Source: Ktedonobacteraceae bacterium (GTDB lineage Bacteria > Chloroflexota > Ktedonobacteria > Ktedonobacterales > Ktedonobacteraceae). Taken from it: a DNA stretch of 64,000 nucleotides. The translations under genes and the position numbers were made by a program. Shown piece after piece: positions 9,775 through 47,708 of this stretch. The stretch is taken from NCBI GenBank assembly GCA_035653615.1, contig DASRBN010000025.1:62001-126000 (forward strand). Reading direction: 5' to 3'. How positions within the stretch are numbered: the stretch's first letter is position 1; every line of letters begins with the position of its first letter. The notes under the pieces were generated by a model. That model ran no database searches. It was not told the DNA's origin and saw only the letters and a list, made by a program, of their open reading frames with translations.

Positions 9775-9843
9775 TCGCTAAAGAGCTGTAAAAAATTCAG
9801 ACCGCCGCGCGGCGGTCTGAATTTTTTTACAGCTCTTTAGCGA
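9775..9843. terminator. Long palindromic bidirectional terminator
   Basis: Arms of about 34 bases are perfectly complementary except for one extra T in the right A/T run. The centre is CCGCCGCGCGGCGG with no unpaired loop, and the inner stem is flanked by A-run on the left and T-run on the right, so it works as a rho-independent terminator in both directions. It starts 5 nt after the tkt stop and contains the TAA stop of the convergent EamA gene. Confidence 0.85.
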
Positions 9844-35943: not shown

Positions 35944-36034
35944 GGCCGATGAATCGGCGCTGGGCGCGATCAATCGGCCCCTACGGGCATCCCGTAGGGG
36001 CCGATTGATCGCGCCCAGCGCCGATTCATCGGCC
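35944..36034. repeat. 44-bp perfect inverted repeat (palindromic element)
   Basis: Two 44-base arms (35944-35987 and 35991-36034) are perfectly complementary around a 3-nt centre. It contains sub-repeats: GGCCGATGAATCGGC, GCGCGATCAATCGGCC and CCCTACGGG. It lies between the convergent gdhA and acidic-protein genes, ending 3 nt before the latter's stop. Parts of the same words recur at 60874-60950 and around 52942-52960. It may be a small non-autonomous element or act as a bidirectional terminator. Confidence 0.85.
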
Positions 36035-36595: not shown

Positions 36596-36975
36596 TCTCC
36601 ACCTGTTATTTTTCTGTAAGGCGATCCTCGTAACCGCCCCGCATAATTTGTAGTTCTACCACTTCCGAAAAGGCAAGAACTTTCATCCCTACCGGTGGTA
36701 TCTCCACTGTCATCATATGAAGAAAGTAACTATCTGTCAAGATGTATTTTTATAGGTCTGAAGCTGCTTATAATGGGAACTGCTAGCCTGTCAAGACCCC
36801 AGGTGCATGAATTGATGTTTGAGAGTATTTGCATGGAACTGTTCGCGCCCATATAATATAGTATGATGCTTTAGACCCCCGATGCCTGATTCTAACGTCT
36901 TATGAGAGAAAATAGGATGGTAGTTATTGGCGACTGGCACCCCTCAGGATGCCCTACGAGTTTTGGAGGAAATAC
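36596..36975. other. Intergenic region upstream of dxs
   Basis: 380 bp between the acidic-protein gene (minus) and dxs (plus). It holds the strong promoter at 36829-36857 and the dxs leader. I see no gene or tRNA. Confidence 0.5.
36829..36857 (+). promoter_or_regulatory. Sigma-70 promoter of dxs
   Basis: TTGCAT and a perfect TATAAT separated by 17 nt, about 120 nt before the TTG start of dxs. Confidence 0.75.

Positions 36976-38974: not shown

Positions 38975-38976
<2 letters not shown>
38932..38976. terminator. Stem-loop at convergent dxs/ABC gene ends
   Basis: Perfect 14-base arms (GATAATCCATCTGG and complement) with a 17-nt loop. The right arm contains two bases of the TGA stop of the minus-strand ABC ATPase gene. 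No T-run, so a protein-free terminator is not certain. Confidence 0.6.
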
Positions 38977-39658
<682 letters not shown>

Positions 39659-43208: not shown

Positions 43209-46200
43209 TTAGGACCGCAGCGCCTCTGTAGGCGTGACTCGTCCTGCCTGCCATGCCGGGAGCAATGCCGCAAGCAGCGAGGCCAGCATGGCAATACCCA
43301 CAATCAGGCCCAATTCGTGCCATGGCACGGCAAATATCAGGCCGATGTTGAATTGCTCGAAGAAATTCACAGCAAAAATGTTGCGCGAAAGAATCAGGCC
43401 CAGAGTCACGCCCATCAGGCTCCCTACACAGCCCACGATGAACGATTCGCTGAGAAATGCTCCTTGCAATAGTCGCCGTTTGCAGCCGAGCGCTCGCAGC
43501 ATGCCAATTTGCTGGCGGCGTTCGATGACTGCGCGTGTGCCTGTAATAGCCAGGGCGGCGATACCCAGCAGCAGGGTCAACCCGACGACACCCAAAAGCA
43601 CATTACTGAGGAATATGCGCGGCCCGCGTATCGACAAGATGGCATCCTCAAGCACAGTGGACTCCATTCCATAGTCGAGAAATGCGGAGCCGAGAGCTAG
43701 AGCAAGCTGGCGCTTATCCTGCCCCGGCGCAACCTTGAAATAGTAGGTCTGCGATTCAGGCGTCGACAGGTCCGGTTGGAAATTGTGAAAGGCGGCACTG
43801 GAGATATAGAGTCCAAAGTGCGAGCTATCGCCATTGTCAACCACACCGATAATCGTCAGTTTCATCGCGGACGTATTATTGTTGTAATAACCCACCGTCC
43901 ACAAGTTGGTAGCAGGAAAGGTGGTATCGCCCTGGTAGATGCCGCTCATTGTGAAGGCATAATAAGGATCGATGCCGGGGGGAGTGAGCGGGGCACCTGC
44001 TGCTGCGGCCTGCGGAGCGTTAGGGTCATATACCGGCGAGTTGATCAGGCTGCCAGGACGGTATGGTAGGGCGTCATCGTCGATCAAAGCATAATTGGGG
44101 TGCGTTTGCAATGCCTGCCATACGGCGCTATCGCTGTTGAAACCCCTGGCACGCGCGGTCAGGTGCAGTCCATAGCCTTGTAGAAACCCTCCGCTCACCA
44201 CCTGCGCCGGGTAAATGTGCCATGCCGGGTCCTGTCCATTGGGCTGGATCACTCCCACTGTTGTCTCTGAACTGACACCGATGGCCGAAAAAACATGCGG
44301 GTTGATGCCGTGACTGAGCAGCGCTGTTTGTATATCGGGTATCGATTTGAAATAGGTGACGGCCTGAATATCATATCCACCCGTCTGGTAGTTGATATCG
44401 GCATAATTATTCTGCATGGCGCTGGTAATCACCGCCATTACCGTCATGGCAAAGATTACCAGGCTAAACATCACTACGCTCAGTCCCGTGCGGAATCGAT
44501 GATGTAAAGGGTAACTCGAAGCCAGGCGCGTCATCATCTGTAAGCCGGGCAGACGCGAGAAAAGCGCCAGTAAGGGTATCGCAAGCAGTTCGGCGTTGGC
44601 AATCAGCGCCCATGCTCCTCCCAGCACCATCATAATACCCGAGACAAAGAAAACCTCCAGACCTCCCTGGAAACGCGGCAAGCCCAATTGCGCCAGTACG
44701 TCGAAAGGCAGCGCCCAGTAGGCGAGTAGCGAAAGTCCCACGACGGCAGCAAATATCTTATTGACGTATCTATTCCATCTCCTCTTGCCCATTCGGAAGA
44801 GGATGTTTTCCGCAATCGTCTTGAGCAGTAGCCCCGCGCCAACGGCGAGCAGTGAAAGGCCAAGCGAGAAAGGAGTAATCAGCGCCTGCTGTAGCCCGAA
44901 CTCGAGGAGCCAGTAGCCGGCCAGCAGCGGCAGGATGCCTGTGCGAGATAGGGTCGCGATGAAACTTATCACTAATTCAGGCAATTGCTGTAGGAGCGCG
45001 CGCCTGATACTGCGCGGATGCAGAGTCCTTTGCTCGCGATAGTATTGCCGGATCGTCGAGGGCAGTACAGGCTGAACAAGCTGGGTGCCAAGAACCTTTC
45101 CTATCTGGAGCATCTGTGCCAGAATCTCGCGGAAGGAGAGCGTGGGGCGTTCTGTTTCCGGCAGGTTGCGCAATGCGTCGACAATTGTCATACGGCTGAC
45201 CACCCAGGCCGATACTCCTACAGAACAAAATGTGAAGATCACGCCCAGGCAATAAGCAATCACCAGGCTGCGCGGCTGAAAAGTGAGTTGGAGCGGGAAA
45301 TTAAACCGCGCCAGTATCGGGCTAAGGTAGAGTACCAGCAACGTGCCTGCACCTATGCCGATCAACAGGCCGATCAATGAAGCGCCCAGATCGTAAACCG
45401 TGCCCTCGAAAAGATACATGAGGACAAGATGGCGGCGCTGTACGCCGATAGCGCGCGCCATACCCATTTCAGCGCGTCGCTCAGCTGCCAGCAGCACGAA
45501 TATCAGGAAGATCAGGAGCAGGCTGATCGCCAGGGCAAAGAGGCTGAAGAGGGCAAAAATGCGCGAGAAGATGTTATCAGCCAGCTGCGCATTTTGTATG
45601 CCTATCTCTTTCACTTGAGAAACATGTAAATAGCCTGGTAGCGCTTGCTCCAATTCATCTTCTACCTGGCCGGATAGAGCGACGCCACCGGTGCCTCCAC
45701 CGCCACGATTCTCAACGAAGATTTCCGTGAGGTCATCATGGCGATGCTCGATAGCACGAAATGTCTGCACATTGGTGAGAATATATGGCAGTTCTCCGAC
45801 AAGGCCACCATCGCGGACGATAGCTCGCACATGCAGTTCGAAGCGCTGACCTGGCCAGCGTTCCGAATAAATGTAAAGGTTATCTCCGGCATGAGCATTG
45901 AGCAATATTGCGACAGTATTGTTGAGCAAGACCTCATTCGGCCCGAGTTCGGCAATGGTATGATGTCCTTTTCCGCTTTCATCCTCCAAGCCCCCAAAGC
46001 CCTGCTCGCTGCCAGGGATGATACCCATTCCTGTGACCTTTGAGCGCACCTGCCGCGAGGTGAGGTCGGCTACCAGCAGATCGTTTTCGAAAAGCGCAGC
46101 TCCTATTGCCGCGATGTCAGGATTGTTTCGCTCTCGCCTGACCAGCTGGTAATAGATAGAGTCGTCGAAGAAGCCGCCATTCCCTCCTTGTATCGTCTCG

Positions 46201-46475
46201 TCGACGTTGCCCAGATTATAGACGGCCACCGTCTGTACCGCGGCGGTGATGACATCGCCTGTTGCCAGCACGCTGGAGAGCAAGGTGGTGGAAAGCATCA
46301 GCGCGAAGACGATCAGCAACATTTGCGTGCGACGGCGAAAGATATTGCGCACGCCGATCTTGAAAAAGATGGCATTGCCGATTGCCAGCAGTACGACGCT
46401 GCCGGTGATGATCGCGGCAGTGACCACAAGGATGGTCGTCAATCTATCGAGTGGAATACCGAAGATCTGTGTCAT
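43209..46475 (-). CDS. Large ABC transporter permease with two FtsX domains
   Basis: 1088 aa. A membrane helix near residue 20-38 is followed by an outside region and a first FtsX block near 320-450, then a middle set of helices (about 500-700), a second outside region (about 720-950) and a final FtsX block (about 965-1088) with ALAITGTRAVIERRQQIGMLRALGCKRRLLQGAFL. Both FtsX blocks hold the short cytoplasmic helix (EMGMARAIGVQRR and QIGMLRALGCKRR) that contacts the ATPase. Such proteins work as mechanotransmitters for lipoproteins or peptides. Its ATG overlaps the stop of the SGNH gene by 4 nt, so the two are co-translated. Confidence 0.85.
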   Translation of the reverse strand: MTQIFGIPLDRLTTILVVTAAIITGSVVLLAIGNAIFFKIGVRNIFRRRTQMLLIVFALMLSTTLLSSVLATGDVITAAVQTVAVYNLGNVDETIQGGNGGFFDDSIYYQLVRRERNNPDIAAIGAALFENDLLVADLTSRQVRSKVTGMGIIPGSEQGFGGLEDESGKGHHTIAELGPNEVLLNNTVAILLNAHAGDNLYIYSERWPGQRFELHVRAIVRDGGLVGELPYILTNVQTFRAIEHRHDDLTEIFVENRGGGGTGGVALSGQVEDELEQALPGYLHVSQVKEIGIQNAQLADNIFSRIFALFSLFALAISLLLIFLIFVLLAAERRAEMGMARAIGVQRRHLVLMYLFEGTVYDLGASLIGLLIGIGAGTLLVLYLSPILARFNFPLQLTFQPRSLVIAYCLGVIFTFCSVGVSAWVVSRMTIVDALRNLPETERPTLSFREILAQMLQIGKVLGTQLVQPVLPSTIRQYYREQRTLHPRSIRRALLQQLPELVISFIATLSRTGILPLLAGYWLLEFGLQQALITPFSLGLSLLAVGAGLLLKTIAENILFRMGKRRWNRYVNKIFAAVVGLSLLAYWALPFDVLAQLGLPRFQGGLEVFFVSGIMMVLGGAWALIANAELLAIPLLALFSRLPGLQMMTRLASSYPLHHRFRTGLSVVMFSLVIFAMTVMAVITSAMQNNYADINYQTGGYDIQAVTYFKSIPDIQTALLSHGINPHVFSAIGVSSETTVGVIQPNGQDPAWHIYPAQVVSGGFLQGYGLHLTARARGFNSDSAVWQALQTHPNYALIDDDALPYRPGSLINSPVYDPNAPQAAAAGAPLTPPGIDPYYAFTMSGIYQGDTTFPATNLWTVGYYNNNTSAMKLTIIGVVDNGDSSHFGLYISSAAFHNFQPDLSTPESQTYYFKVAPGQDKRQLALALGSAFLDYGMESTVLEDAILSIRGPRIFLSNVLLGVVGLTLLLGIAALAITGTRAVIERRQQIGMLRALGCKRRLLQGAFLSESFIVGCVGSLMGVTLGLILSRNIFAVNFFEQFNIGLIFAVPWHELGLIVGIAMLASLLAALLPAWQAGRVTPTEALRS

Positions 46476-47296
46476 GGATGTTTTGGTAATTCTAGCGAAG
46501 CCTGTAAAGCGTTATAGAAGAGTTCCGCGATCCGAACATAACCAATCGTGCTAGGATGAAGACCATCATTGCTGATGTATTCGGGAAAATCCTTAAGGTC
46601 GTAGTTCACCAGATTCACCAGAATCACGCGTTGCTGCTGCGCGATGTTGGCGATGGCAGTATTATAAGCGTGAACCCTACTCTCCAGGTATGAAGGATTG
46701 TAGGCACTGAAATAAGGGAGCAGCGTGAGATCAGGTACGTTCGCCATAGCGATGGTTACACGTGGCGAACTGGCCTGCAGCCGGCGTATCATTGTCGCCA
46801 GGTCGTGTGAGTAGCTGCCGACATCGACTCCGTTTGCGAGATCATTGACTGCCAACCAGATCGTGACCAGGCGAGGATGCTCATCGAGCGCAACAGGAAG
46901 TTCTTCGCTCAATGCATCGTGTACAGTAATACCGGGTATGCCAAGATTAATCAGATGATAGGCGCTGCCAAGTTTCTGAGCCAGGTCGGCAGCCCAATTC
47001 TCGTTATAAGGATCGCCGGTTCCGATGCCGAATGTGTCGGAAGCTCCAATCGCAACGTAAGTGATAGGTGCCGCCGGTGGCCGCGCCAGTGTAGCCGTAT
47101 TGCCCTGGCTGTTGCTCGTTTGCCCACCGGTCATCTGTCCGCAGCTCGCTAAAAAGCACAGGAATAACAATAGCAGTAGGGGTGCGGGCTTGCCCCGCCC
47201 TCGTGCCTTGATGGATTGTTCGCAAGTGGACGCGAGGGCGGGGCAAGCCCGCACCCCTACTGTATGGAAAATACTCTCTTCATAGCGGAAGATCAT
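46472..47296 (-). CDS. SGNH/GDSL-family hydrolase lipoprotein
   Basis: 274 aa if begun at the ATG 47296; a frame open to 47380 makes the start doubtful. The signal part ends in FLASCGQ, a lipobox, so the protein is probably lipid-anchored. SGNH blocks are visible: YVAIGASDTFGIG (block I nucleophile), LVTIWLAVNDLANG (block III Asn) and ISNDGLHPSTIGY (block V Asp-x-x-His). These esterases remove acyl groups from lipids, polysaccharides or peptidoglycan. The first 45 codons contain a 29-bp inverted repeat, which may have replaced the original start. The 4-nt overlap with the FtsX permease gene indicates a shared function. Confidence 0.8.
   Translation of the reverse strand: MIFRYEESIFHTVGVRACPALASTCEQSIKARGRGKPAPLLLLLFLCFLASCGQMTGGQTSNSQGNTATLARPPAAPITYVAIGASDTFGIGTGDPYNENWAADLAQKLGSAYHLINLGIPGITVHDALSEELPVALDEHPRLVTIWLAVNDLANGVDVGSYSHDLATMIRRLQASSPRVTIAMANVPDLTLLPYFSAYNPSYLESRVHAYNTAIANIAQQQRVILVNLVNYDLKDFPEYISNDGLHPSTIGYVRIAELFYNALQASLELPKHP
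47175..47261. repeat. 29-bp perfect inverted repeat inside a coding region
   Basis: Arms 47175-47203 and 47233-47261 are exactly complementary, with a 29-nt spacer. The arms contain the words GTAGGGGTGCGGGCTTGCCC and GCCCTCG. They lie in the codons for the signal peptide region of the SGNH hydrolase. The GC-rich composition differs from the surrounding gene and suggests an inserted palindromic element. Confidence 0.85.
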
Positions 47297-47463
47297 AGTA
47301 GATGAATCTTCTTTACCTGGCTGATTGCTATTTCGACTGCACCTTATGGGATTATAACATAGTCTTACTACGTCCTGCATGCTTCACGTTTGCAAGTTTG
47401 CAAGATGAGAACTCCTGTATGGGTTGCAGGCACCTGAAATGTACTGCCGGGCGGCCATTTTTC

Positions 47464-47492
47464 TTGAATCTTCGCTCACGGTGTGCTATACT
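47464..47492 (+). promoter_or_regulatory. Sigma-70 promoter of the rpsB operon
   Basis: TTGAAT and TATACT separated by 17 nt, about 217 nt before the TTG start of rpsB. Confidence 0.8.
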
Positions 47493-47494
47493 TC

Positions 47495-47708
47495 CACGTT
47501 AGCGGGAGATGATGTACCCGCTCTTTGTAGAACACAAAAATTAAGTACGCACGCTCTTAGATCGGCGAAAACCCTGGTGCCCCTCGATCTATCTGAAGAT
47601 ACTGGTGGTAGGGGTTACGTGAAGCAGTAAGTAAGCAGTTTCACCATGGCCTGTGGGACCCTGTCGTTGATAGGAAAAGAGCGGAGGACCAAAAGGGAGG
47701 ATTCATTT
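47495..47708 (+). promoter_or_regulatory. Long rpsB leader
   Basis: About 210 nt between the promoter and the rpsB start. It can form a stem with AGCGGG/CCCGCT (about 47500-47522) and a larger one with AGATCG/CGATCT (about 47560-47592). Ribosomal protein S2 genes are commonly self-controlled through such leaders; here this is an inference from length and pairing. Confidence 0.4.

Follow-up and report, generated by a model that had tools for sequence, protein, structure and literature searches.

How does the gene for a putative lipoprotein come to carry a long perfect palindrome within its first codons, and what became of the start of that gene? These questions are raised by the minus strand of a 64,000-nucleotide (nt) stretch of a Ktedonobacteraceae genome (hereafter the window), in which an open reading frame (ORF) for an SGNH/GDSL hydrolase runs in frame through an inverted repeat, from ATG 47296 or earlier, into LLLLLFLCFLASC. 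The product matches PF13472 at 95.3 bits (cut-off 32.9), and in LLLLLFLCFLASC one can recognise by eye the core and lipobox of a putative lipoprotein signal, with the lipobox Cys codon at 47143-47141. An earlier note on this DNA had described the repeat as in frame and as coding for residues just before the hydrophobic core, which is what the translation gives, and had held that the gene start cannot be placed from the sequence alone, with which we agree. The best explanation, to which we assign a probability of roughly 0.78, is that a dimer of GTAG-tagged repetitive extragenic palindromic (REP) elements inserted into the SGNH lipoprotein gene and thereby changed or broke its start.

The inverted repeat at 47174-47262 is far beyond chance. 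Our search around the 5' end of the gene (46900-47500) found this one repeat, whose arms are 100% complementary over 30 nt each (the earlier note had counted 29 for what it correctly called an exact repeat inside the N-terminal codons) and are separated by a 29-nt spacer. Among 14 inverted pairs listed across the window (distance limit 300), it is the second longest perfect one. The minus-strand RNA is predicted to fold at -79.3 kcal/mol, compared with -34.0 (standard deviation 3.3) for shuffled sequences, while a lone arm folds at -15.2 kcal/mol. An 18-nt core has 2 matches at ≤3 mismatches vs a shuffle mean of 0.09. The Rfam scan returned a single tRNA and no match at the inverted repeat.

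By anatomy the arms are GTAG-tagged REPs, and the pair is a head-to-head dimer of the REPIN form (REP doublet forming a hairpin). In each arm an unpaired GTAG is followed by a stem of nine pairs that contains a single bulged base and ends in a TT loop, and the feature that marks GTAG REPs, an unpaired GTAG ending a palindrome of 20-40 nt, is present in both. The layout of a REPIN is likewise present: inverted REPs with GTAG facing outward, a short spacer and a joint hairpin. Relatives of the arms are dispersed through the same genome (G000, a 95% complete draft assembly of 6.59 Mb in 44 contigs), in which the subfamily occupies 13 places at ≤3 mismatches (reversed control, 0), comprising the window dimer, another inverted dimer on contig C3 (139395-139464), adjacent direct copies on C44 and single copies. 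A looser GTAG-REP pattern matched 35 places in this genome vs 2 in the reversed control, and a few of the 35 are likely due to chance. When the 13 subfamily copies are aligned, T2, A3 and G4 of the tail are invariant (13/13), G1 is kept in 12/13 and CTTG at the loop is constant, while stem columns 12 and 19 co-vary as A-T or G-C, with both sides changed in 4 of 10 distinct rows. The T at column 8 is common to both window arms and occurs in 0 of the 11 other copies; because it is unique to these two, the arms look like mutual nearest copies. That the two are identical suggests either a recent event or correction of one arm by the other.

The subfamily is almost confined to this genome: at ≤2 mismatches it was found in 2 of the 47 class genomes, the second being G008, where it matched once. 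Of 61 genomes, 22 contain the wider GTAG pattern, which reaches 267 places in G013, a member of the same family. A tally of other REPs within genes was abandoned, as chance alone often produces long ORFs on both strands here. Other palindromes also lie in the window. The longest, at 35944-36034, has perfect 44-nt arms 3 nt apart, contains GTAGGGGCC and is a tail-to-tail GTAG dimer of a different subfamily. It lies upstream of an ORF at 36949 that looks dxs-like by eye, and a sequence similar to it occurs at locus L005, beside the C44 REPs. Two overlapping inverted repeats with arms of 21 and 20 nt lie at 9775-9843.

A scan of 52 related loci with a narrow regular expression found no GTAG REP in the 5' region of the SGNH gene, some of the loci being cut there by contig ends (e.g. 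L011 and L037). These loci come from two overlapping collections, so that some represent the same place twice, and some are paralogues; a permease relative is present on 39 of the 52. Together with the dispersed family in the genome, this absence supports the proposal of the earlier note that the repeat moved into the gene, and the repeat is evidently not at the same place in all orthologues. Synteny with rpsB failed as a test of orthology, as a crude motif search put rpsB adjacent in the window's own locus only, and the permease neighbour was used instead. At the SGNH/permease junction of the same gene pair in G019 (L035, about position 323) there is a different GTAG REP (GTAGGGGCGGGGCTAGCCCCCGCCC).

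The state of the gene before insertion can be approximated by removing the dimer in silico. Removal of 86 nt (GTAG...CTACT) or 89 nt (CAGTAG...CTACTG) yields MKRVFSIQLLLFLCFLASC or MKRVFSILLLFLCFLASC and brings back what reads as a short, standard lipoprotein signal, MKRVFSI(Q)LLLFLCFLASCGQ, in a frame that differs from that of the present ORF; the corresponding net gains are both 2 mod 3. Removal of 84 or 87 nt retains the frame of ATG 47296 (MIFRYEESIFHT...) and gives an acidic n-region. We prefer the 86/89-nt reading because its cuts coincide with the element's natural ends, because the resulting signal is short and K/R-led as in several relatives (MKTSLWLLVSLLCGLCLLSAC in L016, L017, L042 and L043; MKWLKYLFLLSLITLVLTGC in L019 and L053), and because such a start is rare in shuffles (83 of 20000 shuffled flanks yielded one, by a criterion set after the sequence had been seen). 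The earlier note had left it open whether the repeat joined the leader or shifted the start. As the empty site restores a signal in a different frame, the second of these branches fares better, although the REP codes part of any present leader.

We infer a course of events of the following kind. A REP dimer, a non-autonomous mobile hairpin of the kind attributed to REP-associated tyrosine transposases (RAYTs), would have entered codon 7-8 of a gene that then began with the restored signal; the predicted empty-site junction is ATACAGCTATTG (or ATACTATTG), restoring MKRVFSI(Q)LLL. Gaining 86 or 89 nt would have put the downstream codons out of frame, and the old ORF would now end after eight codons at the TAG contained in the REP's GTAG. 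The remainder of the gene would now be reachable from another start only, most likely ATG 47296, or else GTG 47254 by restart just past the TAG. The present ORF is indeed open solely from ATG 47296, 13 nt upstream of the putative ancestral ATG, or from GTG 47254. On the ATG 47296 route the REP would code a new positively charged n-region (ARGRGKPAPLL). The 30-bp hairpin in the mRNA is expected to reduce translation of both the SGNH gene and the coupled permease. The most likely course is insertion and loss of the old start, followed either by weak rescue from ATG 47296 with the REP-coded n-region or by inactivation.

Several observations weigh against this explanation. Neither ATG has a clear Shine-Dalgarno sequence by eye, and many relatives lack an ATG so near the lipobox, which indicates that leaders vary. 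The searches returned no second genome of the genus, and a true empty site was therefore not seen. The subfamily is small, and its covariation statistics are weak, with shuffles matching the paired percentage in 32/500 cases, the covariation score in 15/500 and the count of pairs changed on both sides in 483/500. A search of the assembly with the 89-nt dimer as query returned REP arms and, for the spacer, only weak short matches. Because a second copy of the spacer is lacking, the dimer would be at most a candidate for movement as a single unit, and we class the element as a REP dimer of the REPIN form and not as a proven replicating REPIN. Finally, no RAYT over the curated cut-off was found in the 95% complete assembly, and the one Y1 transposase match in this genome is a TnpA of the IS200 type, whose neighbouring ORF looks TnpB-like by eye.

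Of the other outcomes, a possible though doubtful one is that the insertion inactivated the gene, in that the old ORF ends after eight codons, no efficient downstream start exists and the ORF looks intact because the event is young. The TAG of the REP does lie in the old frame, a hairpin of -79 kcal/mol sits in the leader, no Shine-Dalgarno sequence was seen by eye at 47296, and the arms are still identical, so that little time for decay may have passed. However, the rest of the ORF is intact with a good GDSL score, as is the ORF of the coupled permease, and no stop codon interrupts the present frame across the dimer. This last point is weak, because two of the three minus-strand frames of the dimer are open and an open present frame is accordingly weak evidence of function. 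In another reading, the hairpin might have rebuilt the gene start, the TAG retiring the ancestral start, the REP coding the n-region of a new working signal, and the hairpin with the TAG/GTG pair 2 nt apart setting SGNH-FtsX translation by restart; we consider this unlikely.

Less likely still, the dimer might serve as a hairpin that controls the gene locally from within untranslated or leader RNA, and might be kept for that role, with translation starting downstream or by restart. Many N-terminal REPs may be extragenic, with translation possibly starting downstream (PMC3733652), and GTG 47254 is only 2 nt past the TAG. Nevertheless, that GTG is buried in the stem, and the sole usual start codon between the dimer and the lipobox is a TTG within the hydrophobic core, which would leave no positive n-region. 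It is highly improbable that the inverted repeat is an old, non-inserted part of the gene, such as a terminator or attenuator: it would form an RNA hairpin in a leader, but the scan did not find it in the 5' region of the 52 related loci (some cut by contig ends), the same sequence family occurs at other places in the genome, and the stem is not followed by a U-run. Identity as a terminator was rejected on the latter ground and because the terminator scan has no entry at the site. The least probable alternative is an assembly artefact, a false inverted duplication in a draft genome, for which the identical arms and a column-8 T absent from the other 11 copies would speak, but the unique 29-nt spacer between the arms, the match of each arm to a dispersed family and the presence of another inverted subfamily dimer in the genome all argue against it.

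If the dimer did insert, a RAYT would be the candidate mover, these transposases being held responsible for the movement of GTAG REPs (PMC3733652, PMC3116915, PMC8266576). The IS200-type TnpA was set aside as a candidate because of its TnpB-like neighbour and its score with the RAYT model (26.6 bits vs a cut-off of 80), and no RAYT flanked by the same REP was found in this genome. RAYTs over the cut-off occur in 8 of the 61 genomes. In G013 there is an intact RAYT-like gene of 167 amino acids that scores 64.2 bits with NF047646 vs a cut-off of 80 and 26.1 bits with the IS200 model vs a cut-off of 55. Its locus (L116, 900-2160) resembles a REPtron, with the RAYT-like gene at 1417-1920 preceded by an inverted REP pair and followed by three direct REPs. 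Each REP of this locus has CATT in front of it. A 26-nt REP seen twice at the G013 locus recurs letter for letter in the genome of the window (C18:45807). Most of 15 other loci from the RAYT search or with REPs had no GTAG palindrome nearby by a simple test. These comparisons tie elements of this kind to a RAYT-like gene within the family.

REP dimers in N-terminal codons have already been described, and the window case fits that known kind. In Di Nocera et al. (2013, PMC3733652), the GTAG super-family, with 24 families assigned, forms head-to-head dimers with spacers of mostly 20-100 bp, and the GTAG end supplies TAG stops to ORFs; intragenic dimers are often at ORF N-termini, and many may fall outside the true coding region. 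The window dimer shares the unpaired GTAG tail, palindromic body, head-to-head arrangement, spacer length (29 nt), N-terminal site and TAG stop. The name Ktedonobacter has 0 hits in that paper. The dimer also resembles REPINs (Bertels and Rainey 2011, PMC3116915) as an inverted REP doublet with a spacer that folds as one hairpin, but differs in its unique spacer and in a genome without a RAYT over the cut-off. It has the GTAG and the stem irregularity of the E. coli REP recognised by TnpA-REP (PMC8266576); known cleavage there lies beside CT, one system using CA. Like the Rickettsia palindromic elements (RPE), it is a palindromic repeat within a gene (RPE lie inside coding genes, and conorii is named with RPE-6 and RPE-4, as cited in PMC3733652), whereas it differs from them in its GTAG tag and in that the old frame appears closed rather than kept. 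Among the matches listed from open-licence literature (titles and abstract starts), there was no report of REPs in Ktedonobacter or of a REP inside a signal peptide.

The features of the locus are collected in Table 1. The nearest named relatives of the SGNH gene are in Ktedonobacteraceae and other Ktedonobacteria. Its pairing with an FtsX-like permease recalls E. coli TesA with YbbAP (PMC12646458), of which the pair at 43209-47296 may be a Chloroflexota counterpart; an ABC ATPase ORF (named by eye) lies at 38975-39658 on the same strand. ATG 47380, which would open the longest ORF, was thought unlikely as a start because a TATAAT identified by eye (47356-47351) lies downstream of it; the promoter scan listed zero minus-strand promoters.

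Table 1. Positions in the window of the REP dimer, the SGNH gene and associated features
Feature	Positions	Strand	Basis or remark
Head-to-head GTAG-REP dimer (REPIN form)	47174..47262	.	89 nt including outer C/G; putative net insert 86 or 89 nt; perfect repeat, genomic relatives
REP arm 1	47174..47203	+	CA + GTAG + GGGTG(C)GGGC-TT-GCCCCGCCC (bulged stem) + TCG; 13-copy subfamily alignment
Spacer, 29 nt	47204..47232	.	second genomic copy not found (89-nt query)
REP arm 2	47233..47262	-	same sequence as arm 1, reverse orientation
Putative ancestral ATG (MKRVFSIQ...)	47281..47283	-	empty-site translation; shuffle control
TAG of REP GTAG tail	47257..47259	-	ends putative ancestral frame after 8 codons
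ATG opening ORF through dimer (MIFRYEES...)	47294..47296	-	translation
GTG inside REP, present frame	47252..47254	-	2 nt past TAG; possible restart
SGNH/GDSL hydrolase gene	46472..47296	-	PF13472 and PF00657; present ORF counted from ATG 47296
Hydrophobic core and lipobox LASC (putative)	47141..47173	-	translation; lipobox by eye
FtsX-like permease gene	43209..46475	-	PF02687; start overlaps SGNH stop (ATGA)
TATAAT with TG upstream (extended -10 by eye)	47351..47356	-	position check; promoter scan without any minus-strand promoter

What this locus would add to a known kind of event is a before/after state in Chloroflexota: an apparent interruption, clean and recent-looking, of a conserved export gene by a REP dimer, with both states readable. 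If the protein is still made, the locus would offer a direct view of a mobile palindrome replacing a gene start and the n-region of a signal. At the level of the family, GTAG REPs of several subfamilies are present in Ktedonobacteraceae genomes, and at least one RAYT-like gene there is surrounded by REPs.
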